Source: Halorussus litoreus
GTDB lineage: Archaea > Halobacteriota > Halobacteria > Halobacteriales > Haladaptataceae
DNA: 33,847 nt
NCBI RefSeq assembly: GCF_003382685.1
Contig: NZ_QLVG01000060.1
Coordinates: 1 to 33,847 of the forward strand
Direction: 5' to 3'
Position 1 is the first letter of the stretch, and each line of letters opens with the position of its first letter. Positions 6,101 to 24,365 of this stretch are shown one piece after another. The translations under genes were made by a program, and so were the position numbers. The notes below the pieces were generated by a model. It saw only the letters and a program-made list of their open reading frames with translations, had not been told where the DNA came from and did not search any database.

Positions 6101-8803
6101 CTACGACGCAACGAGGAAGTCGCCGCTGACCGCCTCGCGGGCGTCCCGAACGTAGGCGTAGGTGTTCCGACCGAGGTAGCCGAGCAGCGCGAGGAACACC
6201 AGCCCGTACGCCGCGGTCGAACCGTACATCGTGAGGCGCGCGAACTGATACCGGCTGGCCGCCTGCTGGCGCTCGTCGGCGACGTCCTGGGCCTCCTCGC
6301 TCGCGCCCGCCGTGGCGAACGAGGACTCGGCGTCGTCGTAACCCGAAAGCGAGTCGGCGGCCGTCGTCTCGAAGGCGTCCCACTTCGCGGGGTTGAGCAT
6401 CAGCGGTTGGCCCAGCACCACGGTCAGCATCGACTCGTCCATCTCCTCGCGGAGCTGGCGGGCCGACTGGCGCTGCTCGTTGCCCTGTTGGACCGTCGCG
6501 GTGTAGTTCTCGAACGCGCCAGCGGACTCGGCCCGCAGGCGCTCGGCGCGCTGCTCGTCGCCCTGGAGCGACGCCAGCTGGGCGAGTTGGCGGTTGATGT
6601 GGGCGCGCTCGATCATCGTCACGTCACCGGATTCGAGCTGGTCCTCGTAGTAGCTGCGCTGCTGGTCGACGAGACTGTTCACCCGGTCGCGGGCCGCCGT
6701 CCGGGACTCGTTCGCGGTCGAGCGCAGTTCGGAATCCTCGAGGTTCGCAATGTAGCTGTCGAGCAGGTTGTACGTCGCCGCCGCCTTCACGACCTCGGGC
6801 TGGGCGGCCTCGTTACCCTCTGACTCCAGCGTTCCGGTGGCGTTCTCGACCGACTCGATGAACAGGATGGTCGAGCGACCGGCCGCGATGCCGGTCGAGA
6901 GGTCGGTGCGCGAGACCTCCCCGCCGTCCCGGAGCTTGGTCTCCAGCTGGTCGAGCGTGTCGACCATGCCCGAAGCCGTGTCGGCCTGCCAACCGCCCGC
7001 GTCCGTGCGGTCGGCCAGCGGGCTCCGGATGCCTTCGAGCGACACCGGCTCGGGCGTCGCGGTGACGGTGATCGTCTGTGCGTCGATGCCGTCACCCTCC
7101 ACGCGGTACTCCCACGTGTACTCGCGGTACAGCTCCGCCCCGGTGTCGAACTGGACCGCGACGACGAACGGCGCGGCGTCGCCAGCGGTCAGCCGCTCGG
7201 GCGGGCGTTCGACGACCGTGAGCCACTGGTCGGGGCCGGACTCCTTGGTGATCGACAGGTCGGTCACGTCCTGGTACTCCAGGGTCTCGGCCACGTCGGT
7301 ACTCTGGGTGAGGTTCTCGGTGATGACCACGTCGCCGAAGCCCAGCGAGGTGCGCTCGACCGACAGCGCCACCTCGTGGGTGACGCCGACGCTGCTGGTG
7401 ACGGTCTCGGTGCCGTCCTCCTGGGAGTTCACGTCGACCGACAGCGAGTAGCTTCCCTCGGACGCCGTGGGGTCGGCCTCGACCTCGACGACCACCTCGC
7501 CGCTGCTCTGGCCGTCGATCTGGCCGTCGTAGTCGGCGACGCTCGCGGACACCTGCCCGCTGTCCGTACTGGCCGAGACGCCCTGCACGTTCATCGTCTG
7601 GTCGCCCGCGTTGGGCACCTCGACAGTGACGGTCTCGGTGTACGAAGACACCTGCGACTGGGGCTCGTCGAACACCATCGAGGTGTCGGGCATCGAGACG
7701 TCGCCGAACCGCGGCGGGTAGATGACTCGGCCGGTGAACGACACCGACTGGCCCACGCCGTCCTGATTGTCGGGTTCGAGGTACGCCGTGAAGCCGATGT
7801 TGCTGTGCTGGTTGGCGCTGTCCTCGACGGAGACAGTCACCTCTGCGTTCGAACTCCCGCCCGCGTCCGTACTCAGGTATCGCAGGTCGTCGAAGCTGAT
7901 CGAGCCGTACTGGTCGGACTGGGTCACCTGCGAGTTGACGCCGTCGATGCCGGTGTAGCCGCCCGTCTCGCTGATTGGCAGGTCGACGGTCTTGTCGCTA
8001 CCGACCAGCACGTCGCCGAGGTCGACCGCACCGTTGTCGCCGGCTTCGAGAACCGGCGGCTTGCGAACGGTCACCTCGACGGGCACGTCGAGCGTATTAC
8101 CGAGATTGTCCTCGACCGTCGCGGTGAACTGGTAGGACCCCTTGTCGACCGACGAGTCGGTCGACATGTCGAGCGTGACGGCCTGGCTCTCCCCGCCGGG
8201 AATCGAACCGGGTAGCTGGGAGTAGCTGAGGGTGACCCCGTCGGGGACGCCGCTGAACGTGACGTCCGCGGGAATCATCAGCCCCTGTCCGTCGTTCGGG
8301 ATGGGAACGTCTAACGTGGTCGAGGCCTGATCGTTCGACTCGAACACGAGTTCGGTCTGCTGGGTCGAGACGTAGCCGAACGCGGGTTCGAGTACGTCCA
8401 CTGTGAGCGTCTCGTCCCACGCGGGACTGCTAAAGCCGCTGACCGTCTCGACGTCGTAGTAGCCGCTCGCGCTCTCGGTGACCGTTGCCTCGTAGGTCAC
8501 CCGGTAACTGTTGCCCGCGCGAACCTGCCACGAACTCCCGGTCCCGTCGCGGTTGGTGTCGAGGCTCTGCCACTCGACGAACTCGAAGCCGACTTCGCCG
8601 TCGGTTATCTGTCCGCGGACGCTCGCAGTGTCGTTCGACGGCGCGGTGAACTCGTAGGTCAGCGTCTCGGTAACCGACCCGCCATCGGCGATGACGGTGG
8701 CCCGGTTCACGGTCGTGTCCGGGTTGGCCATCGCGGTCCCGGCAACCCCGTGGAGTCCGACGAGCAGTACCACAGCGACCGTCACGAGCGTTCGACTATC
8801 CAT
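6101..8803 (-). CDS. secreted, C-terminally anchored Ig-like and helical protein
   Basis: This 900-residue protein has a signal peptide at 1-26 (likely cut after AMA). Repeated beta-sandwich (Ig/HYDIN-like) domains run from about 28 to 610. A long helical, Gln/Glu-rich region follows at 615-855, then one transmembrane helix at about 861-880 and a short basic cytoplasmic tail. Most of it therefore lies outside the cell. Several Asn-X-Ser/Thr sequons fit S-layer-type glycosylation. The ATG at 8803 is preceded by a near-perfect Shine-Dalgarno (AGGAGGTGA) and overlaps the upstream gene by eight bases. It is the last gene of the unit. Its neighbours share the plan of an exported domain plus terminal anchor, suggesting one envelope complex. 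No catalytic motif is seen; function unknown. Confidence 0.85.
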   Translation of the reverse strand: MDSRTLVTVAVVLLVGLHGVAGTAMANPDTTVNRATVIADGGSVTETLTYEFTAPSNDTASVRGQITDGEVGFEFVEWQSLDTNRDGTGSSWQVRAGNSYRVTYEATVTESASGYYDVETVSGFSSPAWDETLTVDVLEPAFGYVSTQQTELVFESNDQASTTLDVPIPNDGQGLMIPADVTFSGVPDGVTLSYSQLPGSIPGGESQAVTLDMSTDSSVDKGSYQFTATVEDNLGNTLDVPVEVTVRKPPVLEAGDNGAVDLGDVLVGSDKTVDLPISETGGYTGIDGVNSQVTQSDQYGSISFDDLRYLSTDAGGSSNAEVTVSVEDSANQHSNIGFTAYLEPDNQDGVGQSVSFTGRVIYPPRFGDVSMPDTSMVFDEPQSQVSSYTETVTVEVPNAGDQTMNVQGVSASTDSGQVSASVADYDGQIDGQSSGEVVVEVEADPTASEGSYSLSVDVNSQEDGTETVTSSVGVTHEVALSVERTSLGFGDVVITENLTQSTDVAETLEYQDVTDLSITKESGPDQWLTVVERPPERLTAGDAAPFVVAVQFDTGAELYREYTWEYRVEGDGIDAQTITVTATPEPVSLEGIRSPLADRTDAGGWQADTASGMVDTLDQLETKLRDGGEVSRTDLSTGIAAGRSTILFIESVENATGTLESEGNEAAQPEVVKAAATYNLLDSYIANLEDSELRSTANESRTAARDRVNSLVDQQRSYYEDQLESGDVTMIERAHINRQLAQLASLQGDEQRAERLRAESAGAFENYTATVQQGNEQRQSARQLREEMDESMLTVVLGQPLMLNPAKWDAFETTAADSLSGYDDAESSFATAGASEEAQDVADERQQAASRYQFARLTMYGSTAAYGLVFLALLGYLGRNTYAYVRDAREAVSGDFLVAS

Positions 8804-9818
8804 GGGTCACCTCCTGTGCGGACACGATGTCGTCGACCTGCGAGTCCTCCACGTCGCGGGCCCACGCCGACAGCCGGTGGGCGACCGTCATCGCGACCAG
8901 CGCGACTACGAGCGCGAAGCCGAGCGCGAGCATCGCGCTGGCGAGCGCGAGCGAGGTCACCGCCGACCCCGACTGCTCACGCAGCGACGACACCGTCTCG
9001 GCCCGGTCCGCGAGGCCGTGTTCGGCCGCCAGATCACCGGCGGTGGCGAGCCGACCGTCCGTCGTCCGGGCGTCGCCGTACAGTCCGAACACCGCGGTCG
9101 AGTGGGTGGTGAGCGCGCCGACCGCCGACCCGCAGGCGTCCTCGCAGCGCGACCCGAACTCCCGGGCGGCCGCGACCGACTCGTTCAGCGTCTCCACGTC
9201 TGACTCGTAGGTCGACTGGAGCCGCTCGCGCTGGACGACGAGGTTCGAGTACTGCTGGACCGCGCCGCCCTGCTGGTACGCGTTGGCGGCGCTGCCCATC
9301 AGCGCGAGTCGCTCGCGGGTGTCGTTGGTCTCCAGCGCGGTCTCGTGGAGCGCCTCGCCCTGATTCTGGTAGAATCGGTCGAGCGCCACGGTGGTCAGCG
9401 CCGCGTACTGGCTCCCACCGGCGTTCCGAAGTTGGGTCACCAGCGCGGCGGTCTCGTTGGCCTGTTCGACGCTCGCGGCGCGGTCGCCGTTCCCGCTCAG
9501 GGTGTACGCCTCCTCGAACGTCGTCAGCACGTCGTACACCAGCGCCATCCGCTTGGCCTTGGCGTCGGTGAACTCGCCGACCTGCACGGCCGAGACGGCC
9601 TGTGCCCGGACTACCTCGAACTCGCTGTACTCCTGAAACGCCTCCTGCCCTTCGAGCGCGCGGAACGCTTCGAGGTACTCGTCCGCCGTCTCGGGCGACG
9701 AGTCCCCGTCCTGCGCCGTCGCCGTGGCCGCCGGGGCGACCAGCGACAGACAGAGCAGCAGCACCGCGAACCCGCATCGGGCGTACCGTTTTCGCTCCGA
9801 AGTTACTGTGCCTCTCAC
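8796..9818 (-). CDS. secreted helical protein with C-terminal membrane anchor
   Basis: This 340-residue protein has a signal peptide at 1-35 (cut near ATA-QD). A mostly helical extracellular region rich in Glu, Ala and Gln occupies about 40-285, with a Cys pair (CEDAC) that may form a disulphide. One transmembrane helix lies at about 287-312, followed by a 27-residue acidic cytoplasmic tail. The start is GTG at 9818, two bases after the stop of the 949-residue gene; no good Shine-Dalgarno is visible, so coupling is likely. Its plan resembles the helical C-terminal half of the next gene, so both may contact the same partner outside the membrane. No family is recognised. Confidence 0.8.
   Translation of the reverse strand: MRGTVTSERKRYARCGFAVLLLCLSLVAPAATATAQDGDSSPETADEYLEAFRALEGQEAFQEYSEFEVVRAQAVSAVQVGEFTDAKAKRMALVYDVLTTFEEAYTLSGNGDRAASVEQANETAALVTQLRNAGGSQYAALTTVALDRFYQNQGEALHETALETNDTRERLALMGSAANAYQQGGAVQQYSNLVVQRERLQSTYESDVETLNESVAAAREFGSRCEDACGSAVGALTTHSTAVFGLYGDARTTDGRLATAGDLAAEHGLADRAETVSSLREQSGSAVTSLALASAMLALGFALVVALVAMTVAHRLSAWARDVEDSQVDDIVSAQEVTHG
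8807..8815 (-). promoter_or_regulatory. strong Shine-Dalgarno for the 900-residue protein gene
   Basis: AGGAGGTGA, near-perfect complementarity to the archaeal 16S rRNA 3' end, is placed 3 bases before the ATG at 8803 and lies inside the previous gene. It fixes the start and indicates strong independent initiation within the operon. Confidence 0.7.
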
Positions 9819-9820
9819 GT

Positions 9821-12670
9821 TCAGAACACCGTCCTCTCTAACCGTTCACGCAGTTGGTCGTGGTCGAACAGCTCGTCGACGCCGTCGAGCAGTCCGCCCG
9901 CCGCGAACGCGACCGCAGCCCCGCGGACCGGGTCGTCGCCGCGTTCCTCGTTGACGAACGCCTTCACGCCGTCCCAGAGTTCGCGGGCCGGCGCGACCAC
10001 CGCCAAGTCCGAGCGCTCGGCGTTGATGCGGTCGTCGACCGCCCGGAGCTGGGTCAGCACGGTCTGGCGCTGGGCGGTCCGGTCCTCCTCGAGCAGTTCG
10101 AACAGCGTCGCCACGTCGAAGCCGCCTTGCCACTCGACCCGCTGGTCGCGCATGTCCACGCAGGCACCGAACAGGTCGGTGTTGCGCTTGGTAGTCATCG
10201 CGTCGTTCACGAGTTCGACCGCCGCGTCGGCGGCGTCGAGCAGCGCGTCGGCCACCTCGTCGGGGTCGGCCTCCGCGCTGGCGAACCGGTGGCCCTCGCG
10301 GGGGAGTCGCTCGACCGTCTCCAGCAGGCTTGTCACGACGCTGCCGTAGTACCGCGGGATGGCGACGTCCCGGCCGGAGGTCGAGACGAGCGCGTCCACG
10401 TCCTGTCGGATGGAGGTGACGCGGTCGCGCTGGTTGCGAGCCAGACTGAACTCGAAGCTCGCGTCCAGGCTCTCGCGGGCGGTCCGGCCGTCCCGGATCC
10501 GAACCCGCGACGACTCGACCGCGAAGGCGGTCCCGCCGCCCGGCACGTCCATCCCGACCTCGTACTCGCCGACGAGCAGGTCGTCGAAGCTCGTGACGCC
10601 CTCGCTGTCGGTCGTGGCCGTGCGCCGACTCGCGCCGAGGCTCTTCACGTCTTCGCCGACCGGCTCGACCTCGACGGTCAGCCCGCCGACTGCGGTGCCG
10701 CCGACGGTCGCGGTCACGTCGAGGTCGCCCGCGAGCGGCTGGATGTCGAGTCGCGCGGTCGCGTCCGACCCGCCGGCGACCGACGCGGTCGCGCTGTCGC
10801 CGTCGTACTTCTCGTGGTCGGCCGCCACCTCGACCTCGTCGGCGGCCAGCGGCACGTCGAAGGTGACCTCGCCGTCGGCGTCGGTCTCGCCCTCGCGCGG
10901 GCGGCCCTCGTCGGGGGTGCACGTCACGGGCACGCCCGAGAGCGGCTCGCCGCCGTCGGCGACCGCGACCTCGACCTGCTTCGGGCCGAGTTCGAACGTC
11001 ACCGGCTGGTTCCGGAACGGTGCGCGCACCTCCCGTCGCTCGGAGACGCCGTGGCTCCCGACCTCGACGACCCACGTGCCGCGGTCGAGGGTCAGGCTCC
11101 CCGTGCCGTCCGACAGCCCGGTCGCCTCGCTGCTCGGCCCGCCGTTCCGGTAGGCCGTGTCGTCGGCCTTCTGTCTGGCCTTCAGCTCGGCCGAGATCGT
11201 CGAGCCGGTGCCGGCGTCCTCGACCCGGAAGTCGACGTCGTGACCCTCGTCGTGGGTCGAGGACGTGACTCCCGGCCCGTCCGCGCCGTCGGGCGTCGGG
11301 TCCGAGTCGTCGCCGGTCAGCCGGATGACGACGACAGCGACCCCGAGGACGAGGAAGCCGACGAGCACCCCGACTACGGGCAGCCCGCCCGGTACTACGG
11401 CGAACAGGCCGCCGGAGCTCTCGCCGGAGCCGTCACCGCCCTCGCCGCCCTGCTGGCTTCCCGCGGCCGCGTAAAACAGCGAGTCGTCGGGGTTGTCGAC
11501 CGACGCGTTATGGGGCACCACCTGTGCGCGAACCGACTCGTCGCCCGTCACAATGAGCCGGTAGCTCGCGTTCTCGTTGAGCAGGTAGTCGGTCGCGTTC
11601 AGGTTCACCGAGCCGTTGTCGACCGGGGCGGACAGCTGGACGTACCGCGTGCTGTTGGCGAGCCAGACGGTCGTCTCGTTCGCGTCGAGCGTCGAGCCGT
11701 CGATGGCGACTGCGGTTCCGTTGTCGGTCACGCTCGCGTTCGGGACGCCTGCCACGTCGCGCTCGTAGGGCACGTTCTCGACCACCGCGTTGCCGCCGCG
11801 GTGCACCGACACCGAGAGGGCGTCGGCGCTCGCCAGCGTCTCGTCGGTCACCGTCAGGTTCCCGTCGCCGTCCGCGGCGACGGTGCTCGCGAAGGTGGCG
11901 TTGGTCGCGGGTTCGATCATCGTGAGGTCGTACTCCAGCCCGTCAGCGATCAGGGGGCTGTCGACCCCTAGGGTCTCGTCGTCCTGTCGCTCGACGCTGG
12001 TCACCTCACGGCTGAGCTGCCAGAGGTTCAGGTCCGTCTGGTCGCCGCGCTCGGCCGCCAAGGTGGCTCCCTTCGACGGGGGCAGGTGGACGCTCCCGGC
12101 GTCGAGCGACACCGCGAGCACCGTGCTGCCGTTGCGGTACTGGACCGTCGCGTCGGCGACCGGCGCAGTCTCGCCCGAGAGCGTGACCTCCGCGCTGTCC
12201 CCGTCGGCGTAACCGAGCGCCTGCTGGAGCGGGACTTCGAGCGTCCCGTCCGCGAAGCTTGCGCCTCCGGAGCCGCCGAACGACAGCGTCCGGAGGTCGA
12301 CGTATTCGGTGACCGCGGTCCCGTTCTCGCCCTGCGGCTCGACGGTGACCGACGCGTTCGAGAGGTCGGTCTCCGGCGAGCTGAGTTCGGTGACTGCGAC
12401 CGAGTACGTGGACTCGTTGTTCGCGGTCCCGTCCGGGGACAGCGACGCCGACTGGCCGCCGGTCACGCGAACGGTGACGTTCCGGTCGCTCCCGTTGAAG
12501 TGCTCGTCCCCGAGCGCGATTTTGAGCTGACCACCGGAGCGCTCCACGTGGTCGACGTCTCCGTGCGCGGTCCCGACGCCCGTGACTCCCGCGACGACCG
12601 ACAGCGCCAGCAGGACCGCCAGCAGGGTCGCCCCGAGGCGCTCGCGTCGGTTGGTGGGGCTGGCCGTCAT
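9821..12670 (-). CDS. single-pass receptor-like protein with beta-sandwich domains on both sides of the membrane
   Basis: This 949-residue protein has a signal peptide at about 1-36 and an extracellular region at 37-400 rich in beta structure and Asn-X-Ser/Thr sequons. A Gly/Ser stalk (405-421) and a transmembrane helix at about 429-450 follow. The cytoplasmic half is large. It has carboxypeptidase-regulatory/CNA-B-like beta modules at about 480-730, with repeated TDADGEVTF/TDSEGVTSF-type turns, and then a helical domain at about 745-949. Placing such modules inside the cell is unusual and suggests a mechanical link between the envelope and a cytoplasmic partner. The ATG at 12670 starts two bases after the stop of the tubulin-like gene just upstream, making that protein the obvious candidate partner (inference). 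Confidence 0.85.
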   Translation of the reverse strand: MTASPTNRRERLGATLLAVLLALSVVAGVTGVGTAHGDVDHVERSGGQLKIALGDEHFNGSDRNVTVRVTGGQSASLSPDGTANNESTYSVAVTELSSPETDLSNASVTVEPQGENGTAVTEYVDLRTLSFGGSGGASFADGTLEVPLQQALGYADGDSAEVTLSGETAPVADATVQYRNGSTVLAVSLDAGSVHLPPSKGATLAAERGDQTDLNLWQLSREVTSVERQDDETLGVDSPLIADGLEYDLTMIEPATNATFASTVAADGDGNLTVTDETLASADALSVSVHRGGNAVVENVPYERDVAGVPNASVTDNGTAVAIDGSTLDANETTVWLANSTRYVQLSAPVDNGSVNLNATDYLLNENASYRLIVTGDESVRAQVVPHNASVDNPDDSLFYAAAGSQQGGEGGDGSGESSGGLFAVVPGGLPVVGVLVGFLVLGVAVVVIRLTGDDSDPTPDGADGPGVTSSTHDEGHDVDFRVEDAGTGSTISAELKARQKADDTAYRNGGPSSEATGLSDGTGSLTLDRGTWVVEVGSHGVSERREVRAPFRNQPVTFELGPKQVEVAVADGGEPLSGVPVTCTPDEGRPREGETDADGEVTFDVPLAADEVEVAADHEKYDGDSATASVAGGSDATARLDIQPLAGDLDVTATVGGTAVGGLTVEVEPVGEDVKSLGASRRTATTDSEGVTSFDDLLVGEYEVGMDVPGGGTAFAVESSRVRIRDGRTARESLDASFEFSLARNQRDRVTSIRQDVDALVSTSGRDVAIPRYYGSVVTSLLETVERLPREGHRFASAEADPDEVADALLDAADAAVELVNDAMTTKRNTDLFGACVDMRDQRVEWQGGFDVATLFELLEEDRTAQRQTVLTQLRAVDDRINAERSDLAVVAPARELWDGVKAFVNEERGDDPVRGAAVAFAAGGLLDGVDELFDHDQLRERLERTVF

Positions 12671-12672
12671 GG

Positions 12673-13893
12673 CTACCCCTCGTTGATCTCCATGTACTCG
12701 GTCAGGTTGTCCTCGATGCGCCGGAGCTCGTCGGCCGGCAGCCGGGCGTTACCGAGCGACCGGCCGGACTGGAGACTCTCCTTGTACTCCTCGAACTCCT
12801 CCCACGAGTGGTCGAGCAGTGGGTCGAGGTCGAAGCCGCCGAGCAGCAAGAGTACGTCGACCGAGTCGCCCCGCTCCTGCTTTGGCGTCAGGCTGGTCAT
12901 GCCCGAGGCCCCGAGCAGGCCGTGCTCGCGCTTCCACTGGTTGAACGCGTTCTGCACGTCGGGCTCGGTGATGTCGCCGCTCTCGATCATGTGCTCGGGC
13001 GCGCGGACGACCGCGTACGTGACCCGCGAGGTGCCCACGTCCATCGGGACGAACGCGTTCTCGGCGGCCTTGTCGAACATATACTCCAGTTCGAACATCC
13101 CGCCGTTGAGGTCGGTCGCCACCGCGGGCGTGAAGTGGTACGCGCCGATCTGGGAGGGGATGGTCACGTAGTCCTGCACGTCGATGACGCCCCGCGTCTC
13201 GCGGCCCGCGCCGATCATCAGGTCGATGGCCGAGATGATCTGCTCGTTGACCTCGCTGTAGTCGGTACCGGTCGCGTCGTCGTCGCTCAGGTGGGAGTTG
13301 GCCGCCAGGAGCACCATGTCGGCGTTCTGGCTGCCGTCGGGCGACCGGATGAGTCGCGAGAGGCCCGCGACCGCGTTGAACTGGCGCTGGGGGGCCTCGT
13401 AGTAGTACGGCCACACGGCGAACGCGGTGTGGATGGTGCTGTCCATCCAGTTCTTCCGCCGGTCAGTGTCGAGGCCGCTCTTGAACTGGTCGATGACGTA
13501 GGGGATCGAGCCGTTGCCGGTCCCGCCGCCGAGGGTCGCGGCGTGGAGGAACGCGTCGACGTTCCCGCCCTCGGTCGCGAGGTCGCCGATGTTGCCGACG
13601 ATGCGGTCCAAGTCCTCGCGGGCGGCCTCCATGCCGGTCACGAAGAAGTTGCCCGCGCCCTGCTGGGAGCCGAACTCCAGCGCGTGCTGGGAGGGGTCCT
13701 CGCCTTCGGCGAAGTTCGACTCCATGTGGCTGATAGTGTTTCGGATGTCCGCACGATTCGTGTTCATCACGAGGATGCGGTCGTCGATTCCGGGGTTGTC
13801 CGACCGGGTGAAGAACTGCGAGGCGATGCGACCGCCTCCCTCGCCCGAGGCGACGACCGCCCATCGCGTGTACGTGTCTCTTACCTGTGACAT
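12673..13893 (-). CDS. FtsZ/tubulin-superfamily GTPase, divergent (copy 1)
   Basis: This 406-residue protein is a probable GTP-binding, filament-forming member of the tubulin/FtsZ superfamily. Visible signatures are a T1-like glycine loop SGEGGGR (16-22), MNTN (43-46), the signature T4 loop GGGTGNGS (122-129), a T6-like AANSHL (197-202), and a T7-like VIDVQDYVT (236-244). By eye, D238 and D241 align with the two catalytic aspartates of FtsZ, but the preceding Asn is Val. There is no membrane segment and no FtsZ C-terminal tail. It fits the non-canonical Tubulin_2/FtsZl-1 type better than FtsZ1, FtsZ2 or CetZ. It is one base downstream of the 701-residue gene and two bases upstream of the receptor-like gene. 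I expect GTPase activity, but polymerisation is inference. Confidence 0.85.
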   Translation of the reverse strand: MSQVRDTYTRWAVVASGEGGGRIASQFFTRSDNPGIDDRILVMNTNRADIRNTISHMESNFAEGEDPSQHALEFGSQQGAGNFFVTGMEAAREDLDRIVGNIGDLATEGGNVDAFLHAATLGGGTGNGSIPYVIDQFKSGLDTDRRKNWMDSTIHTAFAVWPYYYEAPQRQFNAVAGLSRLIRSPDGSQNADMVLLAANSHLSDDDATGTDYSEVNEQIISAIDLMIGAGRETRGVIDVQDYVTIPSQIGAYHFTPAVATDLNGGMFELEYMFDKAAENAFVPMDVGTSRVTYAVVRAPEHMIESGDITEPDVQNAFNQWKREHGLLGASGMTSLTPKQERGDSVDVLLLLGGFDLDPLLDHSWEEFEEYKESLQSGRSLGNARLPADELRRIEDNLTEYMEINEG

Positions 13894-13894
13894 A

Positions 13895-16000: not shown

Positions 16001-17124
16001 AGTAGCTCTCCGAGTGTGCCGAATCCATCGAGTACGAACAGCGCCGCCAGCGTCAGCACGACCGCGAGCGCCGCGAGGCCGGCCGCCCACGCGAGCACTC
16101 GCGGGGAGTAACTCACGCTGGAGTTGACCTCCCGGTCCTGTCGGATGCGTTCGAGTCTGGTCGCGGTCAGCTTCCAGCCCGGCACCGCACCGACCACGAG
16201 ACCGGCCACGAGCGCGCCCGCGAGATTGACCATCCCGGTCGAGCGCGCGTCGCTCTCGGCGGCTTCGAGCGTTGCGAGGTAGTGTCGCTTCGCCGCGTCC
16301 GCGCTCGCCTTCGCCGAGCGCTCGCGCTCTTGTGCGGCTTCCAGCGCGGCCAGTGCGTTCGACCCGCCGCTGGCGCGCCACGCGGTTCCGTAGAGCCCGG
16401 CTTCGAGGTCGGCCCGCGCCTCCGTCACCGACTCGCTGCTGTCGTTGATCGCCGCGAGCTGCTCCTCGGTGACGTTGCTCAGGTTCGCCTCGCCCGACTC
16501 GACCGCGGCAGCCGACTCGTTCAGCGCCTCGGCCGCGCTCGTGAGGTTCGACGCAGCCGCGAGGAACCGCGTCTCGTTGTCGGTGTAGTCCGTTTTCGCG
16601 TCCTCGCTCTCGAACGTTATCGAGTCGTTCGCCAACTCCGAGTCGACCGTCGCGGGCCGCGGCACGTCGATGGAGACCGCGGGGATTTCGCCCTTCCGGT
16701 CGACGAGACCGAGCACGTCGACGTGTGACGTCTCGCCGGTCACCCGAACGGTCGCCGTCGCGTCGGTCGAGTCGAGTATCTCCAGCCCCTCCGAGTTCGA
16801 CAGTTCCCACTCGGAGCCGTACGTGTTCAGCGCCGACCGCTCCTCGCAGAGCGCCAGCTTGAGCGTCGTTCCGGCGTACAGCGTGGCGTTCTCGCCGGAC
16901 CCTGTCAGCACCTGCGTGCCGGTCGTCGACGACGAGCCCGGCAGGATGCCGACGAGGTGCTGCCCGCCGCTGGTCTCCCCGCAGGCAGCGTCGGCGTCCG
17001 GGTAGGTCGCCGCGGCCGCGGGGCTCGCGGCGAACAGGGCCGCCGAACAGACCACCAGTAGGCCGACCGCCAGCACCGAGACGCGCTGGCGAACGTGCTC
17101 TTCAGGGGTACCGTCGCGGCTCAT
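15997..17124 (-). CDS. exported membrane protein with helical ectodomain and two C-terminal TM helices
   Basis: This 375-residue protein has a signal peptide at about 1-38 (AAAA before TYPD). A small beta-rich part with Cys pairs precedes a long Ala/Glu helical region (about 165-295) with several sequons. Transmembrane helices lie at about 298-318 and 344-364, with a short basic cytoplasmic loop between them (RLERIRQDRE). The start is ATG at 17124, overlapping the stop of the 92-residue gene as ATGA. The frame is open upstream, but the extension is Arg-rich shadow sequence. Its stop overlaps the next ATG as ATGA, so it sits in a chain of coupled membrane proteins between two tubulin-like genes. 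No family is recognised. Confidence 0.85.
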   Translation of the reverse strand: MSRDGTPEEHVRQRVSVLAVGLLVVCSAALFAASPAAAATYPDADAACGETSGGQHLVGILPGSSSTTGTQVLTGSGENATLYAGTTLKLALCEERSALNTYGSEWELSNSEGLEILDSTDATATVRVTGETSHVDVLGLVDRKGEIPAVSIDVPRPATVDSELANDSITFESEDAKTDYTDNETRFLAAASNLTSAAEALNESAAAVESGEANLSNVTEEQLAAINDSSESVTEARADLEAGLYGTAWRASGGSNALAALEAAQERERSAKASADAAKRHYLATLEAAESDARSTGMVNLAGALVAGLVVGAVPGWKLTATRLERIRQDREVNSSVSYSPRVLAWAAGLAALAVVLTLAALFVLDGFGTLGELL

Positions 17125-17399
17125 TCGTTCCCACCTCGCGTCGCGTACGCGAGGAGGCCGCCGCCGAGGAGGCCGACCGCCAACCCGAGGCCGAGTCCGG
17201 CGGTCCGGGGCACCCACGGACTGTTCGTGAGCGCCATCGCGTCGGCCGTGGCGTCGGTCTGCTCCTGTATCTGGTTGGCGAGCCGGTCGTCGGCGGGCGA
17301 ATCCTCCGCGCCGTCCACGACCCCGGGAACGCCCACGAGTGCGGCGGCGACGAGTGCAAGAACGGCCACAAAGCCTATAAAAACGACTGTGCGCGTCAT
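17121..17399 (-). CDS. small membrane protein (92 residues), signal or TM plus C-terminal TM
   Basis: A hydrophobic N-terminal segment (about 4-26) is either a signal peptide or a first membrane helix. An acidic loop follows (30-60, AEDSPADDRLANQIQEQTDA), then a glycine-rich transmembrane helix at about 66-86 ending in TRGGNE. Both ends overlap neighbours by four bases (ATGA with the tubulin-like gene upstream and with the 375-residue gene downstream), which makes it a real, coupled gene despite its size. The longer open frame upstream (to 17555) lies inside the tubulin-like gene and is rejected. Function unknown; it could be a small subunit stabilising the membrane complex. Confidence 0.8.
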   Translation of the reverse strand: MTRTVVFIGFVAVLALVAAALVGVPGVVDGAEDSPADDRLANQIQEQTDATADAMALTNSPWVPRTAGLGLGLAVGLLGGGLLAYATRGGNE

Positions 17400-18601
17400 A
17401 TCGTCTGCCCGACCTCGCTCTCGGCCTCGTACTCGTCGGCCCGATCCTCGATCTCGGTGATGCGGTCGACGTTCTCCCGCCGGTAGGTGAACAGCGAGGT
17501 GAACGACGCGAGGTTCCGGCGGGTGAGCGCGACGCCGAGGTTGACCTCGGGGCACTGGGCCTCGAGGAACCGGCGGATGGTCGAGGTCTCGATGCGGTTG
17601 TCGCCGCCGGAGATGTACTCGACCGGTGCGCGGACCAGCCCGATGGCCTTCTCGGCCTCCTCGGGCGAGACGCCCGAGAGCGTCTGCTTGCTCGTCGCCA
17701 GCCTCGAAAGCGCGCTGCTGTCGACCTCCTGGCCGCCCACGAACGGGACGAGGTAGCCCAGCAGCGACCGGGTCATCGACACCGAGCGGCCGATGGTGGC
17801 GTACCCCGGCGTGGGGTTGGTGCCGCGCGTGTCGAACGACAGCGAGGTCACCACGTCCTGGAGGTCGACCACTGGCGGGTCGACGTCGTCGTACTCGCCC
17901 GGGTCGATGCGTTCAAGCGTCGACCCGGAGATGAGGTCGACCAGCCCCGAGGCCACGTACTCGTTGTACTCCGAGAACCGGCCCTCGGCGGCGTCCTCGT
18001 AGGCCAGTCGCTGGTTGTCCACGAGGACGATGCCGTCGACGGACTCCTCCAGCCTGTCGAGCCCGTAGACGGTGTTCCACGCCTGTCGGCCCGCGCTGAT
18101 CTGCTCGTCGTCCTCCGATACTGGTCCCTTCGTGTTGGGGAGCACCGCGACGGCGATGATCTGAGCCACGCCGTCGGTGTACTCCTTGATCGCGTCGGCC
18201 ACGTGGGGAGCGATACCACATCCGGTCCCACCACCGAGTCCGAGGCAGACGAACGCGAAGGGGATGTCCCCCGGCGTGCCGTCGTCCTCGTCGAAGTGCG
18301 ACGAGAGGGTGCCCAGCAGTTCCTCGCGGTTGTCGGACATCACCTCGTCAGCCTGAACCGGGTTGCGGCCGAAGCCCCCGGTCACCTGTTCCTCGAAACC
18401 CGGCGTTCCCCGCTCGACGAGTCCGTGGCGCTCGGCGATGCCGTACTGGTTCGCCTCGTCCACGTTCGAGAGGTTGCGGAGGTCCCGGATGGTCGAATTG
18501 AACACCAGTGGCGAGGCGGGGGTCGAGACGCGCCGATGGCCGAACACGTCGTCCACGATAGCGCTGCCCGCTTGCCCGGTGCCAGCAAATACGTAAACCA
18601 T
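17396..18601 (-). CDS. FtsZ/tubulin-superfamily GTPase, divergent (copy 2)
   Basis: This 401-residue protein has clear nucleotide-binding loops: T1 AGTGQAGS (6-13), T4 GGGTGCG (123-129), T6-like VDNQRL (194-199), and T7-like VVDLQDVVT (244-252). D246 and D249 fit the catalytic positions of FtsZ; the Asn before them is replaced. The C-terminal part is acidic and helical with no membrane segment. I chose ATG 18601 because T1 then begins six residues in, as in other family members, and because a TATA-like element lies about 38 bases upstream. A GTG at 18637 in frame is the alternative and would add 12 residues. It is the first gene of the second transcription unit and overlaps the 92-residue gene. 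GTP binding is very likely; filament formation is inferred. Confidence 0.87.
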   Translation of the reverse strand: MVYVFAGTGQAGSAIVDDVFGHRRVSTPASPLVFNSTIRDLRNLSNVDEANQYGIAERHGLVERGTPGFEEQVTGGFGRNPVQADEVMSDNREELLGTLSSHFDEDDGTPGDIPFAFVCLGLGGGTGCGIAPHVADAIKEYTDGVAQIIAVAVLPNTKGPVSEDDEQISAGRQAWNTVYGLDRLEESVDGIVLVDNQRLAYEDAAEGRFSEYNEYVASGLVDLISGSTLERIDPGEYDDVDPPVVDLQDVVTSLSFDTRGTNPTPGYATIGRSVSMTRSLLGYLVPFVGGQEVDSSALSRLATSKQTLSGVSPEEAEKAIGLVRAPVEYISGGDNRIETSTIRRFLEAQCPEVNLGVALTRRNLASFTSLFTYRRENVDRITEIEDRADEYEAESEVGQTI

Positions 18602-18634
18602 GTCGGTACGTCGGTCATTTATCCACAAAGCGGA

Positions 18635-18647
18635 CACATATACCTAA
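18635..18647 (-). promoter_or_regulatory. TATA-like promoter of the second tubulin transcription unit
   Basis: The minus strand reads TTAGGTATATGTG. Counting about 27 bases from the TATA centre puts transcription start near 18613, giving a leader of roughly a dozen bases before the ATG at 18601. It follows directly on an oligo-T tract, so it separates this unit from the 551-residue gene upstream. Confidence 0.45.
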
Positions 18648-18679
18648 CGGAAGTACGAATTCTAGCACACGTTACAGGC

Positions 18680-18685
18680 AAAAAA
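18680..18685 (-). terminator. oligo-T terminator after the 551-residue protein gene
   Basis: On the minus strand, TGA at 18693-18691 is followed by GACGGTTTTTTGCC. Six T within ten bases of the stop fit archaeal termination and mark the end of the first transcription unit. Confidence 0.45.
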
Positions 18686-18690
18686 CCGTC

Positions 18691-20346
18691 TCAGCCTCGA
18701 AGTCGTCGAAGCATCACGCTGTACTCGTTGCGCTCGTAGAGATTCTCCACGTAGTCGAGAGTTTCGTCTGCGGCCGCCACCATCCCGGCCGCTCGGGCGT
18801 CGTCGCCGCCCGCCGCGGCCCCCTCGGCGTCGTCGAGGAGCGCGTCCACCAGCGAGAGGAAGTGCAGCGGGATGGAGTGGTTGTGGTCGCGCCGCCCGTC
18901 CACGTACCGGTCCTCGACCTCCTCGCGGCGGTCGGCGACCGCCTCGCGGCGCTCTCCGACTCCCTTCGCGGAACCACTAGCTTCCATCGCCGCCCCGTCG
19001 GCGGACGCGCCGCTGCCGGCAGCGGCGCGTCCGCCGACTGCGTCGAGTTGGGACAGCAGCGTGCTGTCGTAGAACCGCAGTTCCGACCGGACCGCGTACG
19101 GGACGACGGCGTTCGACTCGTCGGCCCGGTCGAGCATCTCGCGGAGGTCGGCGATCCGGTCCTCAACCGCGTCGGCGACCGGGCCCGACCTGCCGTCGAG
19201 GTCCGCCGCCACGTCGTCCGCGAGTTCCTCGACCGCGTCCTGGTCGAGGTCCGCGACGACGCTCTGGGTCGTCGAGGCGGCGTCGAGCTGGTCGACCGCG
19301 GTTTCGAGCGCGGCCCGGAGGTCGCCCATCCCGGGCGAGGCGAGGCGGTCGAGCAGTCGCTTGGCGACCGCGCTCTCGGGGCGGCGCTCGCGGCGCACCT
19401 CGCCGGCGACCGACGACGCCTGTCCGCCCGAGGCCTCGCCGTCGGTGAACACGAGTTCGTCGCGCTCGACCGCGTCGGCGAGCACGCCCAGTCGCTCGGC
19501 CACCGGTCGGCCGCTGTCGGGTCCTACGTCCACGTCGGTCGCGCCGGTCGCGGCCGCGGTGAGCGCGTCGGTTGCCTCGCCAATCTGATCGCGCTCGCTC
19601 TCGCGGCGGTCGGCGCTCGACCGACGTTCGGCGGCCGCCTCGGCCAGTCCGACGACTGCCGAGGCGGTCTCGGAATCGAGGTGGTCGAGTTCCTCGCGGA
19701 TTCGTCGAACGTCACCCGGTGCGACCCCGTCCGAGTCGGACACCTCGGCCACCGCGCGGTCGAGCGCCTGCTGGGTGTCCAGCGCCGCGGCGGCGTCTGT
19801 CAGCACGCCATCGAGGTCGTCGGCGCGCTCGGGCGAGGCCAGCGCGTCGAGCAGTCGGCGGCCGGCGGGCGAGGACGGCGACTGCTCGCGCCGGAGCCGG
19901 GTCGCCGCGTTGGCGGCCGCGCCGTCGGCGGTGTCAGTGCCTCCAGGTGTCCCGCCGGGGCCAACCGACAACTGGTCGCGCCGGACTGCCCGCGAGAGGG
20001 CTTCTGCCTTCTCGACGGCCGAGGCGTCGGGCTGTGGCGCGTCCCGGAGGTGCCGGTCGAGGTCGGCGTCGGCGACCAGCGCGTCGACGGCCTCCTCCAG
20101 CGCGTCGAGTTCGCGCTCTATCGATTTGGGGTCCTCGCGGGCGTCGAGCCGCCGGGCGATTCCACTCAGGTCGCCGTCGCCGTCGTCGGAGCCGCCGAAC
20201 AGGCCCAGCACGCCGACCGTGGCCAGCGCGGCGACGGTCGCGACCGTCGCCGCGCTGGCCGCTCCGATTCCGGGGAGAACGGTTTCGGGAAGGACGAGTC
20301 CGGGGGTCGCGAGTCCTGCAAGTCCGAGGGAGGCGAGTCCCGGCAT
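18691..20346 (-). CDS. helical/coiled-coil protein with N-terminal TM segment
   Basis: This 551-residue protein has a hydrophobic N-terminus with one likely transmembrane helix (about 27-50, ending GVLGLFGG). The remainder is a very long, acidic, Ala/Asp/Glu/Arg-rich helical region. Two related blocks resembling RRLLDALASPERADDLDG and KRLLDRLASPGMGDLRA suggest an internal duplication. A conserved-looking C-terminal helical part ends EYSVMLRRLRG. The open frame extends to 20580, but that lies within the tubulin-like gene. ATG 20346, four bases after that gene's TGA, is chosen; there is no Shine-Dalgarno, so reinitiation is likely. Probably a membrane-tethered partner of the zinc-finger tubulin (inference). 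A perfect 42-base palindrome lies near its 3' end (18997-19038). Confidence 0.8.
   Translation of the reverse strand: MPGLASLGLAGLATPGLVLPETVLPGIGAASAATVATVAALATVGVLGLFGGSDDGDGDLSGIARRLDAREDPKSIERELDALEEAVDALVADADLDRHLRDAPQPDASAVEKAEALSRAVRRDQLSVGPGGTPGGTDTADGAAANAATRLRREQSPSSPAGRRLLDALASPERADDLDGVLTDAAAALDTQQALDRAVAEVSDSDGVAPGDVRRIREELDHLDSETASAVVGLAEAAAERRSSADRRESERDQIGEATDALTAAATGATDVDVGPDSGRPVAERLGVLADAVERDELVFTDGEASGGQASSVAGEVRRERRPESAVAKRLLDRLASPGMGDLRAALETAVDQLDAASTTQSVVADLDQDAVEELADDVAADLDGRSGPVADAVEDRIADLREMLDRADESNAVVPYAVRSELRFYDSTLLSQLDAVGGRAAAGSGASADGAAMEASGSAKGVGERREAVADRREEVEDRYVDGRRDHNHSIPLHFLSLVDALLDDAEGAAAGGDDARAAGMVAAADETLDYVENLYERNEYSVMLRRLRG
18997..19038. repeat. 42-base perfect palindrome with no spacer, inside a gene
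   Basis: Bases 18997-19017 are the exact reverse complement of 19018-19038 (axis GCTGCC/GGCAGC). In the 551-residue protein it encodes a Gly/Ala/Ser-rich stretch. The next flanking bases do not pair. Confidence 0.9.
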
Positions 20347-20350
20347 GGGT

Positions 20351-22096
20351 TCAGGCCATGTTCTCCCGGCCGAGACACGAGAACAGCGGGTCCACGAGGT
20401 GCCAGATGTCCCGGAGGCTCTCGGCCTGTCTGCTGTTGCCCTCCTCCTTGAGCGTCTTGGCGTGTTCGTACATCGCCTCCAGCGACGGCATCTTAGGGTT
20501 CCACAGCGTGCCCCACAGATACACGTCGTCGAGGTACGGGATGACCATCTGGCTGATGTGGATGTCGATGGACTCGGCACCGCTCACGTCGTCGACGTTC
20601 AGGAACTCCTCGCCGCCGATGATCTCCCGGAGCGTGTTGTCGTTGACGTACGGCGAGACGTGCTCCATCTTCTCCTCCGGCCCGTAGATGATGAACGTGC
20701 CGCCCCACGCGGTCGTGGGGTCGAAGTCCGAGAGCTTGTTGTGGAACAGCGCGTTCCGGACCAGAATTTCGAGCCCGGACTTGTCGAGTTGGGCGTCACG
20801 CGACCGGCCGAGCACCGGCGCGAGGATGACCGCAGGCGTGTACTCGCGGTCGAGGTCGAGCGGATACTTGTCCTCGACCGGCCGGAAGCTGTCGGAGACG
20901 TCGAACACGTCACCCTGGATCGACATGGTGGCGTCCTGGTCGACGATCTGGGGCGTCGAGGACATGGTGAACGCTTCCAGGAACGCGACGAGGGGCTTGT
21001 TGAGTTCGGTGTACTGCGGCGGGTTGTACCGCTCGATGCCCTCGATGCGGGGCTTGATGTCGCCCTGCACGTCCTGAAGTCGCTCGTTGTTGAACGGGAT
21101 AATGGCGTCGGCGGTCTGGGACATCCGGGCGAGCCCGACCGCGCCGTTGGTCCGGGCCCGGCCGCCGAACTTGTCCTCTGCCGAGGGGATGACGACCGAA
21201 CTCAGCAGCGCCTTGTCGATGACGTAGTCGTCCGACAGCACCTCCTCGCGCACGTGCTCGGCGAGCGCGGGCGTCGACCCGCAGCCGGTGCCCTTCGTGA
21301 CGCTGTGGACGAACATGAGCGCCTGCGCGTCCCGGACGTGCTGGGGGTCCATGTCCCACCGGTCGCGGAACGGGTTGCCGTCCTCGAAGTCGGCCCGGAG
21401 CACCTTCTCGCCGTTGTCCCACCGCCGCCCCATGCCGGAGTAGTCGTGCTTGCCGAACCCGATGATGGCGTTCGGGAGCAGGTCGTTGCGGCTGTACTGC
21501 TTCAACTCCTGGGCGTAGTAGGTCTGCTCCAGCTCCGCGATGTTGGTGTTCAACATCCCGTAGCCCGCGAGCCCGCCGCGCCACACCAGCGCGCGGTCCT
21601 CGTTGTTGTGCTCCAGGGTGTTCTTCCGGAGCAGGATGGCGTCCATGATGTTGTTGCCCGCGCCGCCGACGCCGATCATGTACCACTTCTTGCCGTAGGC
21701 GTCGTCGAGCAGGTCGACGTCCCCGGCACCGCCGGACCCGCCGCTTCCCGGACCGCCCGCTCCGCCGGGGACGCCAGAGCCGCCGGCCCCCGCCGAATCG
21801 TCGGTCCCGCCGAGCGGCCCGGGCGTCGTCGAGCCTCCGGACCCTCCCGACCCAGCCGAGCCGCCCGATCCACTCGTCGGCGCTCCGGGGCCGCCAGCAT
21901 CCGGCCCGCCAGCGTCGCCTGCTGCGCCGTCGTCACCGAGGTCGGCCCCGCCGTTCTCGAACAGTTTCTCGTGACGGTCGCTGTACACTGCGCGCACTGA
22001 CGTCTCGTCGTCGGCGTGCGAGCCCAGCAGGTGTTCGTCGAGGCTGTCCTCCGCCCATTCCGTCTCGGTCTCGAAGCAGATTCTGCACTTTGTCAT
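20351..22096 (-). CDS. FtsZ/tubulin-superfamily protein with N-terminal zinc finger (copy 3)
   Basis: This 581-residue protein has a C2H2-type zinc finger at its N-terminus (C4, C7, H22, H27). A disordered Gly/Ser/Pro linker follows (about 50-126), then a tubulin-like GTPase domain: T1 IGVGGAGNN (141-149), MLNTN (181-185), T4 KGTGCGS (268-274), T6 NNERL (336-340), and a T7-like IVDQDAT (384-390). T4 lacks the first Gly of the canonical GGGTG motif, and the T7 spacing is one residue short, so hydrolysis may differ or be lost. The domain runs to the C-terminus with no membrane segment. ATG 22096 has no Shine-Dalgarno but overlaps the stop of a 44-codon ORF (ATGA). The 551-residue gene follows after four bases. 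GTP binding is likely; the finger's target is unknown. Confidence 0.85.
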   Translation of the reverse strand: MTKCRICFETETEWAEDSLDEHLLGSHADDETSVRAVYSDRHEKLFENGGADLGDDGAAGDAGGPDAGGPGAPTSGSGGSAGSGGSGGSTTPGPLGGTDDSAGAGGSGVPGGAGGPGSGGSGGAGDVDLLDDAYGKKWYMIGVGGAGNNIMDAILLRKNTLEHNNEDRALVWRGGLAGYGMLNTNIAELEQTYYAQELKQYSRNDLLPNAIIGFGKHDYSGMGRRWDNGEKVLRADFEDGNPFRDRWDMDPQHVRDAQALMFVHSVTKGTGCGSTPALAEHVREEVLSDDYVIDKALLSSVVIPSAEDKFGGRARTNGAVGLARMSQTADAIIPFNNERLQDVQGDIKPRIEGIERYNPPQYTELNKPLVAFLEAFTMSSTPQIVDQDATMSIQGDVFDVSDSFRPVEDKYPLDLDREYTPAVILAPVLGRSRDAQLDKSGLEILVRNALFHNKLSDFDPTTAWGGTFIIYGPEEKMEHVSPYVNDNTLREIIGGEEFLNVDDVSGAESIDIHISQMVIPYLDDVYLWGTLWNPKMPSLEAMYEHAKTLKEEGNSRQAESLRDIWHLVDPLFSCLGRENMA

Positions 22097-22227
22097 TGTG
22101 AGTGTGTCCGGTCGGTCGTTCGCTCGAACCGCGGGCCCTTCATCCTGTCGCGTCCGGCGGCAGTCGTCCTGCGCCCGGAGGGCATCGTCCCGCTGCGCGC
22201 CGGCGTATCCGCGAGTTGTCGAGTCAT
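22093..22227 (-). CDS. possible 44-residue basic mini-ORF between membrane-protein and tubulin genes
   Basis: The 127-base gap is one continuous ORF: its ATG overlaps the stop of the 668-residue gene (ATGA), and its TGA overlaps the ATG of the zinc-finger tubulin gene (ATGA). GGAG lies about nine bases before the start. The product is Arg/Thr-rich and basic, unusual for this organism. It would explain how the tubulin gene is translated without its own Shine-Dalgarno. No similarity is recognised, and it could also be an open spacer. Confidence 0.35.
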   Translation of the reverse strand: MTRQLADTPARSGTMPSGRRTTAAGRDRMKGPRFERTTDRTHSQ

Positions 22228-24227
22228 CCGTACTGCTCCTGATACCGCCCGTGGAGCGCGTCGATGGCGCGCTCGACCGAAGTGCCCTCCTTCGGCACGA
22301 GTTCGACGAACCCCGGCGGCGCGTTCTCCTGGACGTCCAGAGACTCGATCACGTCGGTCTGGCGCTGGCCGAACCGCTCGATCTGGGCAAGCACCGCGGG
22401 CGTCGCGACGGTCTCGGGCAGATCGCCGGTCTGGAGTTCGGCCCGGTCGTCGTCGGTCGCCCGCCCGGCGTTCTTGAGCTCGCGGAACACGAACAGCACG
22501 GAGTCGATGGTCTCCTCCGGCCGGGCGGCGCGGTCGGCCGAGTCGACCGACCCGCCGCCAGCGCCCGCTTCGGCCGTCGAACTGCCATGCCCGCTCGACG
22601 CGCCGCGCCCGCTCGCGCCAGCGCCAGCCGACTCGCGGTCGCCCGCGTCGGTTCGCTCCGTCGCGGCTGCGCGACCCGCCGCGTCCGCAGCGCCGGCGCT
22701 TCCGGCACCGCCCGCTTCGGCCGTTCCGCCGGCCGGCGAGCCTGCCGCCGGGGCGTCCTCGTAGTCGATGCGGACCGCGTCGCCCTCGACCCGGAGCTGC
22801 GCGCCGTACTGGCTGGCGAACGCCGGGCGGAGCTCCTCGACCAACGCGGGGTCGACGCCCGCCGGGAGCGAGACGCGGTCGCCGTCGTGGTCGACCGTGC
22901 CGACCACGCTCCAGACGAACTCGACGACCGTCACGAGGTCACCAGCGTCCGCGGCGGCCGCCTCGGCCGCGCGTTCGGCGTCGTCGAACTGACAGTCGTG
23001 GAGCGCGTCTCGGCCCTCGGCGAGCCGATCCTCTACGTCGCCGACGCCGGCGGTTCCCTCTCGGCGTCCCTCGACGACCAGCTCCGAGAGCCGGTCGGCG
23101 ATCGCGCCGTCGAACCGCTCGACCTTCGTTCGAACGGTCTCGACGTCCGACTCGGCGGCCGCGGCGGTCTCGGCGAACGTCGCTTCGCGCTCGGCCACGT
23201 GCTCGTTCACGCGCGCGAGGTGACTTTCCACGTTCTCGACCGCCGCGGCGATAGTTTCGAGGTCCTCGTCGCGCTCGATGCGGTCGAGCAGCGCGTCGGA
23301 CACTTGATCGACGTGGACCGACGAGTCGAGCGCCGCGAGGTCCACGTCGCGGAACCGCGCCGGTAGGTTCACCAGCTCGTACTCCCGGTCGTATCGCGAC
23401 CAGCTCTGGACCGTGCCGTACGTCGTTCGGATGCCCGACGCGACCCGGTCGCGGAGTTCGCCGTCGATGCGCTCGACCTCGCCCTCGGGGTCGAGCTCCT
23501 CGACGCGGCTCCGGAGCGAGGCCGCCTCGGCTCGGAGCTGGTCGGCCGACCCGCGCTCGGCCGCGGACGCGTCGGCCGCGATCTCGTCGCAGCTGTCGAG
23601 GAACTCCCGGCGGCTCTCTCTGGCCTGCTCGACGCCGGTCGGTGCCACGTCCTCCAGCGCGTCGAGGTCGCCGATCCGTCGTCGGTAGGCCTCCTCGAAC
23701 GCCTCGCGTTTCCGGTCGAGTTCGGCCGACACCTCGGCAAGCTCGGCGGATTTCTCCTCGACGACCGTCCCCTCCCAGTCGTGAGCGAGCGCGGCCCCGA
23801 TGGCAGCTCCCGAGGCGACCACCGGCACCGCGAAGAACGCCACGACCTGCGCTGTCGGCACGTCCGAGCCGAACATCGGGAGGTAGACGCCGAGAAAGAG
23901 CGCGAAGAACAGCACCGAAACCAGCCCCGCAGCGGCGAACGTCACGTCTCGGTTCCCGCGGGCGAACTGCGCGACGCCCTGTGCGAGCCACGCGCCGGCG
24001 ATGAGGACGAACAGCCCGAACACGAGCGTCGGGCTCTGCCACATCAGCACCGCGGCCTCGTCGAACACCGCGACCGAGCGGATCGCGTCCTGCAACGCGG
24101 CGAGCCCTGCCGCTCCGAGCGTCGTCTCCAGCATCGCCAGCGTCGTCTGTATCAGCGTTGCGAGTATCGGTATCCCCGCGAGCCCCCACGCGGCGAGCGT
24201 CGGTTCAATTCGACGACTTGTAGCCAT
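22224..24227 (-). CDS. four-TM membrane protein with long cytoplasmic coiled coil
   Basis: The protein has about 667 residues. Four hydrophobic segments lie in the first 150 residues (about 10-34, 66-86, 96-118, 127-148), with a helical loop between the first two. A long acidic coiled coil follows (about 155-430), then a compact region with DHDGDRVSLPAG near 452-463, an Ala/Gly/Ser low-complexity linker (about 505-575), and a helical C-terminal domain (575-667). GTG at 24230 directly precedes ATG 24227; ATG is preferred because a TATA-like element lies about 27 bases upstream, consistent with a leaderless mRNA. First gene of the first transcription unit. Likely a membrane platform for the zinc-finger tubulin (inference). 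No family is recognised. Confidence 0.82.
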   Translation of the reverse strand: MATSRRIEPTLAAWGLAGIPILATLIQTTLAMLETTLGAAGLAALQDAIRSVAVFDEAAVLMWQSPTLVFGLFVLIAGAWLAQGVAQFARGNRDVTFAAAGLVSVLFFALFLGVYLPMFGSDVPTAQVVAFFAVPVVASGAAIGAALAHDWEGTVVEEKSAELAEVSAELDRKREAFEEAYRRRIGDLDALEDVAPTGVEQARESRREFLDSCDEIAADASAAERGSADQLRAEAASLRSRVEELDPEGEVERIDGELRDRVASGIRTTYGTVQSWSRYDREYELVNLPARFRDVDLAALDSSVHVDQVSDALLDRIERDEDLETIAAAVENVESHLARVNEHVAEREATFAETAAAAESDVETVRTKVERFDGAIADRLSELVVEGRREGTAGVGDVEDRLAEGRDALHDCQFDDAERAAEAAAADAGDLVTVVEFVWSVVGTVDHDGDRVSLPAGVDPALVEELRPAFASQYGAQLRVEGDAVRIDYEDAPAAGSPAGGTAEAGGAGSAGAADAAGRAAATERTDAGDRESAGAGASGRGASSGHGSSTAEAGAGGGSVDSADRAARPEETIDSVLFVFRELKNAGRATDDDRAELQTGDLPETVATPAVLAQIERFGQRQTDVIESLDVQENAPPGFVELVPKEGTSVERAIDALHGRYQEQYG

Positions 24228-24258: not shown

Positions 24259-24365
24259 CGTTTGCCCTTGCCGTAACGTCGCCGAGAGCGGGCAGACGGC
24301 GATGTGTCGGGTGAGCTCCGAATAACTAGTCCCGAAGCTATCAGGACGCGGTTACTTTCGTCCGG

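Follow-up and report, generated by a model that had tools for sequence, protein, structure and literature searches.

Two gene modules with divergent tubulin-superfamily GTPases and membrane and surface partners: a candidate envelope-linked cytoskeleton of archaea

Archaeal tubulin relatives outside the FtsZ and CetZ families are usually termed 'non-canonical' and have stood without known partners. The nearest published proposal to the gene set described here is the membrane-remodelling system built on FtsZl1 (Tubulin_2), put forward by Makarova and Koonin in 2010 (PMC2875224). FtsZl1 is a protein of ~1000 aa with a coiled coil and a C-terminal helical domain. Halo.Tub is a sparse halobacterial paralogue placed between CetZ and the tubulins, which occurs in quasi-tandem copies with coiled-coil neighbours (Santana-Molina et al. 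2023, PMC9871819); the main text of that paper is silent on a set of partners, on pairing, on the exchange of modules and on occurrence in other phyla. In BtubA/B and the Asgard AtubA/B, two distinct tubulins are encoded together. Additionally, tubulins are found with NTPases and membrane parts in the modular and patchily distributed conflict systems of Kaur et al. 2020 (PMC7159879).

The window, that is, the whole stretch of DNA analysed, has 33,847 bases and makes up one whole contig of a haloarchaeal draft genome with Halorussus species as close relatives; its right end holds the RNA polymerase operon. The gene set comprises ~16 genes for divergent tubulin-like proteins and their membrane and surface partners. 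These are listed below, the minus-strand genes being delimited by start and stop codons and written in the direction of reading.

Beyond the contig end in relatives, plus-strand operon: F11 and F12, in conserved order
2-397, plus: F13, a ~214-aa protein of which the contig end leaves the C-terminal part; 66% identity to F13 of genome G118, with the order F11-F12-F13-AAA-propeller conserved
453-2198, plus: AAA ATPase, CDC48/CdvC-like, 581 aa; Pfam AAA 106.7 bits; tracks Tub3
2195-5476, plus: PQQ/beta-propeller and CARDB protein, 1093 aa, without signal peptide; PF13360 33.0 bits, PF07705 33.4 bits
24227-22224, minus: 4-TM coiled-coil protein of the Tub3 module; hydropathy scan, neighbourhood matching
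22096-20351, minus: Tub3, 581 aa, with a C2H2-type zinc-finger-like N-terminal segment, a linker and a divergent tubulin domain; PF00091 38.8 bits; invariant C4, C7, H22, H27
20346-18691, minus: cc551, coiled-coil protein of the Tub3 module with one weak N-terminal TM; hydropathy scan, neighbourhood matching
18601-17396, minus: Tub2, tubulin-superfamily GTPase, 401 aa; PF00091 43.6 bits; clade support 99/99
17399-17121, minus: tiny 92-aa protein with two TM (or signal peptide and TM); hydropathy scan; sequence recognisable mainly within the genus
17124-15997, minus: exp375, exported, with C-terminal TM segments; hydropathy scan, ORF-level matching
16000-13895, minus: cc701, with two TM helices at the N-terminus, helical bundles predicted to be cytoplasmic, a transthyretin-like beta domain and a C-terminal domain; AlphaFold2 model
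13893-12673, minus: Tub1, tubulin-superfamily GTPase, 406 aa; PF00091 39.9 bits; clade support 99/98
12670-9821, minus: receptor-like protein with signal peptide, ~380-aa ectodomain, TM, cytoplasmic transthyretin/CNA-B-like domain(s) and helical C-terminus; sub-threshold SdrD_B/SpaA/CarboxypepD_reg matches
9818-8796, minus: exp340, exported helical protein with C-terminal TM and cytoplasmic tail (WARDVEDSQVDDIV); paralogous to the C-terminal region of exp900 (hhalign 98.2%, 249 columns)
8803-6101, minus: exp900, exported, with Ig-like repeats, helical stalk, C-terminal TM and short cytoplasmic tail (YVRDAREAVSGDFLV); co-occurrence, C-terminal homology to exp340

Like the FtsZl1 system, this locus joins divergent tubulin-superfamily proteins to membrane partners. 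However, its tubulins are much shorter than FtsZl1, its constant core consists of a tubulin pair and paralogous surface proteins, and no vWA, OmpA, kinase or P-loop GTPase was recognised by Pfam in the window. Compared by description only, Halo.Tub may well be Tub1 or Tub2. With CetZ and FtsZ1/FtsZ2 the present proteins share the superfamily and the T1, T4 and T7 motifs, whereas those families form separate, well-supported clades and are unlinked to the present partners. The chains of BtubA/B and AtubA/B were matched in profile searches; Tub1 and Tub2, a putative pair, are likewise two distinct tubulins encoded together but are far more divergent. The window proteins also differ from the systems of Kaur et al., as Pfam recognised no GAP1, DO-GTPase, HSP70 or vWA in them. 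The gene set was undescribed in the literature searched, which left out most subscription papers. With a probability of roughly 60%, we consider the locus to encode one envelope-linked tubulin cytoskeleton of two coupled modules, a Tub1/Tub2 core and a regulatory module.

The 11 minus-strand genes span 24227 to 6101, and eight of their ten junctions overlap or are at most 4 bases apart, which bears out the earlier note that nearly all junctions overlap or touch. That note had further suggested production of the proteins in fixed ratio; this is unsupported for the whole set, because gaps of 89 bases before Tub2 and 127 bases before Tub3 could hold promoters. Its outline of the partners (proteins with four, one and, in the tiny one, two TM segments, a receptor-like protein and exported anchored proteins) agrees with the hydropathy scan. 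The extent of the locus was set by gene clustering, ORF-level matching and a tblastn search in which the window proteins were compared with the regions around Tub2 orthologues. The minus-strand set held, but the outline proved too small, as the convergent plus-strand operon at 2-5476 (F11-F12-F13-AAA-propeller), absent from the earlier note, is part of the same system; its genes F11-F13 lie mostly beyond the contig end. A G run followed by a C run at positions 1-52 is probably an assembly artefact, and in relatives the system extends past the contig start. By the same methods, gene order and orientation were found to be kept among Halorussus relatives as well as in representatives of four further families, so that the neighbourhood survey found the genes together and not dispersed.

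All three tubulin candidates exceed the PF00091 gathering score of 33 in Pfam, as expected from their first description as divergent tubulin/FtsZ-like proteins. In an alignment with the FtsZ and CetZ of the same genome, T1, T4 and the D-x-x-D of T7 are present and conserved in each; the T4 motif reads GGGTGNG in Tub1, GGGTGCG in Tub2 and a deviant KGTGCG in Tub3. The N-terminus of Tub3 additionally bears an invariant, zinc-finger-like C-x2-C...H...H pattern. The family profiles match solved chains of FtsZ, CetZ, TubZ or tubulin, Tub3 weakly (E ~1e-3). Tub3 was the tubulin modelled with AlphaFold2, and as the model is too poor for use (pLDDT 42.5), its tubulin fold, like that of Tub1 and Tub2, is a prediction from sequence profiles. 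As to PF13809 (Tubulin_2, cut-off 27), Tub2 reached 21.4 bits in the Pfam scan and Tub1 and Tub3 were unmatched.

The distribution of the genes speaks against a single set of three equal tubulins, as first supposed, and for two separable modules. Tub1, Tub2 and exp900 were found in exactly the same 13 of the 146 haloarchaeal genomes surveyed; with such patchy presence the system is therefore not a basic housekeeping cytoskeleton in haloarchaea. Tub3 occurs in 11 of these 13 and as one divergent copy in G006, and the AAA ATPase gives a strong match in the same 11 genomes, its one match elsewhere being a fragment from an incomplete genome. The F11-to-propeller operon of G076 is still kept although ~250 kb separate it from the tubulin operon; two adjacent CetZ-like genes are located ~3 kb from the separated operon (L169:1160-3481). 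G132 and G138 possess the Tub1/Tub2 core and lack Tub3, AAA, F11-F13, cc551 and the 4-TM protein. Both carry instead a Tubulin_2 protein of ~1,150 aa, above the cut-off in each, together with two paralogous proteins, a multi-TM P-loop GTPase and one whose P-loop is degenerate. In these two genomes the core thus has FtsZl1 and the membrane GTPase as neighbours, so that the partner set, which the earlier note held to differ from the FtsZl1 system, does lack the defining features of that system in the window but is combined with them elsewhere. FtsZl1 with the multi-TM GTPase or its paralogue also occurs free of the core in several haloarchaeal genomes (L171-L176). Conversely, G006 has Tub3, cc551, the 4-TM protein, a receptor-like protein, a propeller and an AAA gene, and lacks Tub1 and Tub2. 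Because the core occurs without Tub3 and the Tub3 set without the core, the locus is a Tub1/Tub2 core plus a Tub3 module that is exchangeable or free-standing. The propeller protein is a neighbour in both the Tub3 and the FtsZl1 variant. Across the exchange, descent of Tub3 from FtsZl1 was unsupported (hhalign 4.3%), and no homology was found between the 4-TM protein and the FtsZl1 GTPase (hhalign 4.7%). The genes beside the Tub3-only variant of G006 (L167:2888-12524) encode two unknown proteins, a HEAT-repeat protein of 1490 aa and a MoxR ATPase that scores just below the bpMoxR cut-off, and a second Tub1-like gene of G138 with a partial score is found on another contig (L170:12242).

Within Halorussus, 6 of 18 genomes have the system, all adjoining the rpo operon; the G130 copy is divided between contigs, with the Tub3 end next to rpo. 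An empty site is seen in 11 Halorussus genomes, where the flanking CrcB genes lie ~0.5-1.6 kb from the flank genes on the opposite, rpo side. Owing to these empty sites and the rpo-side placement, the ~26-kb set is considered to be gained or lost as a unit.

The core is not restricted to haloarchaea. Scanning of genome contigs with the Tub1 alignment gave 57 loci, all archaeal, a result bounded by the short peptide patterns on which the scan is based. Tub2, cc701, Tub1, exp340 and exp900 are neighbours in Methanoperedens, Hydrothermarchaeota and euryarchaeal genomes. The core of Tub1, Tub2, the 2-TM helical-bundle protein and two exported proteins is also present in ANME-2, and partially in Altiarchaeota and Micrarchaeota. 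Where Tub1 lies apart from Tub2 (ANME-2/Methanosarcinales, Altiarchaeota, Micrarchaeota), Tub2 is still encoded in all ten genomes tested, which were chosen as having a seemingly isolated Tub1 (ANME-2, Altiarchaeota) or a distant Tub2 (Micrarchaeota); it scores 134-272 bits there against at most 54 for CetZ and FtsZ. In ANME-2, exp340 and once also exp900 adjoin Tub2. The full partner set is not universal, because in Altiarchaeota it is reduced to Tub1, Tub2 and, beside Tub2, a weak match of exp340. Pairwise distances of Tub1 and Tub2 are correlated (Spearman 0.76, Pearson 0.90), uncorrected values that shared ancestry alone can produce. The recurrence of the core in distant archaeal groups points to an undescribed skeleton gripping the cell envelope.

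The main rival explanation is a conflict system against invaders or for cell suicide, in which tubulins, GTPases, MoxR/vWA proteins and propellers would form NTP-driven complexes with effectors at the surface or membrane. The patchiness of the locus, with clean presence or absence at one site, would suit such a system, as would the exchange with FtsZl1-GTPase modules and the published assignment of tubulin-vWA-GTPase sets to conflict systems (PMC7159879). The Tub3-only variant of G006 adjoins a MoxR ATPase near the bpMoxR model, and the AAA protein matches IetA models. These last matches are, however, expected for any CDC48-like AAA; the NCBIfam IetA score is 81 against a cut-off of 510, and no protease was recognised among the neighbours of the AAA gene. 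In a PADLOC scan covering the other module proteins except exp375, the tiny protein and exp340, one marginal match was obtained, and Pfam scans recognised no nuclease, protease, NADase effector or vWA. Moreover, the core is kept across phyla, also when its genes are unlinked. Thus, we regard a conflict function as unlikely.

The envelope-linked cytoskeleton that we favour draws further on the exported proteins. Over ~250 C-terminal residues, exp340 and exp900 are paralogous, comprising a helical membrane-proximal region, a TM helix and similar, short, predicted cytoplasmic tails. A pattern D/E...G-[D/N]-x-[L/V/I] is found in the tails of 33 of 46 exp900 and 22 of 50 exp340 members, against 2 of 337 other C-termini, the pattern having been chosen after inspection of the tails and the counted rows being related sequences. 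For cc701, the AlphaFold2 model is confident (mean pLDDT 86.6) except for the first ~63 residues, so that the TM helices are predicted with low confidence. Residues 473-561 form a beta domain that is transthyretin-like in a fold search (Z ~10), and the helical bundles gave no specific relative there; a spectrin/EzrA-like anchor was considered and was absent from the matches. Two TM helices combined with a basic N-terminus suggest that the large part of cc701 is cytoplasmic. The receptor-like protein adjoins Tub1 or exp900 across phyla. As judged from sequence, superfamily membership, conservation, co-occurrence, module exchange and the exp340/exp900 paralogy are established.

With four to five exported or two-sided proteins, the locus might also be read as a surface apparatus for adhesion, an appendage or secretion, whose exported proteins are merely positioned or assembled by the tubulins. 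Its Ig-like and transthyretin-like domains are reminiscent of modules in pilins and adhesins, and CetZ genes sometimes adjoin type IV pilus genes (PMC9856176). But transthyretin-like matches are a common arrangement, and Pfam and NCBIfam scans recognised no pilin, secretion ATPase, sortase or assembly-platform gene, which leaves this reading improbable.

In the tree, Tub1, Tub2 and Tub3 (support 100/100) each form a clade of their own, CetZ stands apart and the branches are long, in line with the first description of these proteins as distinct from FtsZ1/FtsZ2 and CetZ. TIGR00065, the FtsZ equivalog with a cut-off of 295.2, gives 20.3, 37.9 and 34.0 bits for Tub1, Tub2 and Tub3, all below it. 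The source genome contains six further PF00091 genes, including FtsZ and CetZ genes. An accessory cell-division or cell-shape system, branching off FtsZ or CetZ, can be given very little credence, for although Tub2 is closest to CetZ by profile (hhalign 99.8%), the genome already has FtsZ and CetZ genes, the TIGR00065 scores of 20-38 fall far short of 295, each Tub family has its separate clade and most Halorussus genomes lack the system.

For the proposed cytoskeleton, we infer polymerisation, contact between Tub1 and Tub2, tail binding, the direction of force and the biological purpose. Tub1 and Tub2 would be paired GTPases, probably co-assembling at the cytoplasmic side of the membrane. Anchorage there may come from cc701, with its two TM helices and large cytoplasmic helical domain, and also from exp340 and exp900, which would hold the tubulins with their cytoplasmic tails and act at the cell surface with their outer parts (helical stalk; Ig repeats). 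A second two-sided link could be provided by the receptor-like protein. Tub3, the 4-TM and coiled-coil proteins, the AAA ATPase, the propeller and F11-F13 might drive or dismantle core assembly, and in two genomes FtsZl1 with its membrane GTPase takes the place of this presumed regulatory module. GTP-dependent assembly would then pull on, cluster or position surface proteins, leading to envelope remodelling. More tentatively, and at clearly less than even odds, Tub1 and Tub2 may be an old obligate archaeal pair whose filament, built from both in the manner of alpha/beta tubulin or AtubA/B, holds on to the cytoplasmic tails of paralogous surface proteins; this would be an envelope-spanning machine of several archaeal phyla, regulated by the Tub3/AAA or the FtsZl1/GTPase set.

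Two families of the 'non-canonical' group are here tied, in several groups of archaea, to each other and to membrane and surface proteins. As carriers include culturable haloarchaea (Halorubrum, Halobaculum, Natrinema and Halorussus), the tubulin-to-envelope link is testable. Furthermore, exchange of the Tub3/AAA and FtsZl1/GTPase sets gives the FtsZl1 proposal of 2010 a concrete partner set.

Some minor features lie to the right of the module. Two exact copies of the tRNA-Asp 3' end are located at 24959-24979 and 25111-25131, and like repeats occur at most Halorussus sites, module or not. Because they are present at most empty sites, the repeats are no marker of the module, and its integration at tRNA-Asp was rejected. 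At 24352-24784, a gene of up to ~147 aa, which in relatives has a conserved place separating the module from rpoH, appears here in two frames, possibly owing to a frameshift.
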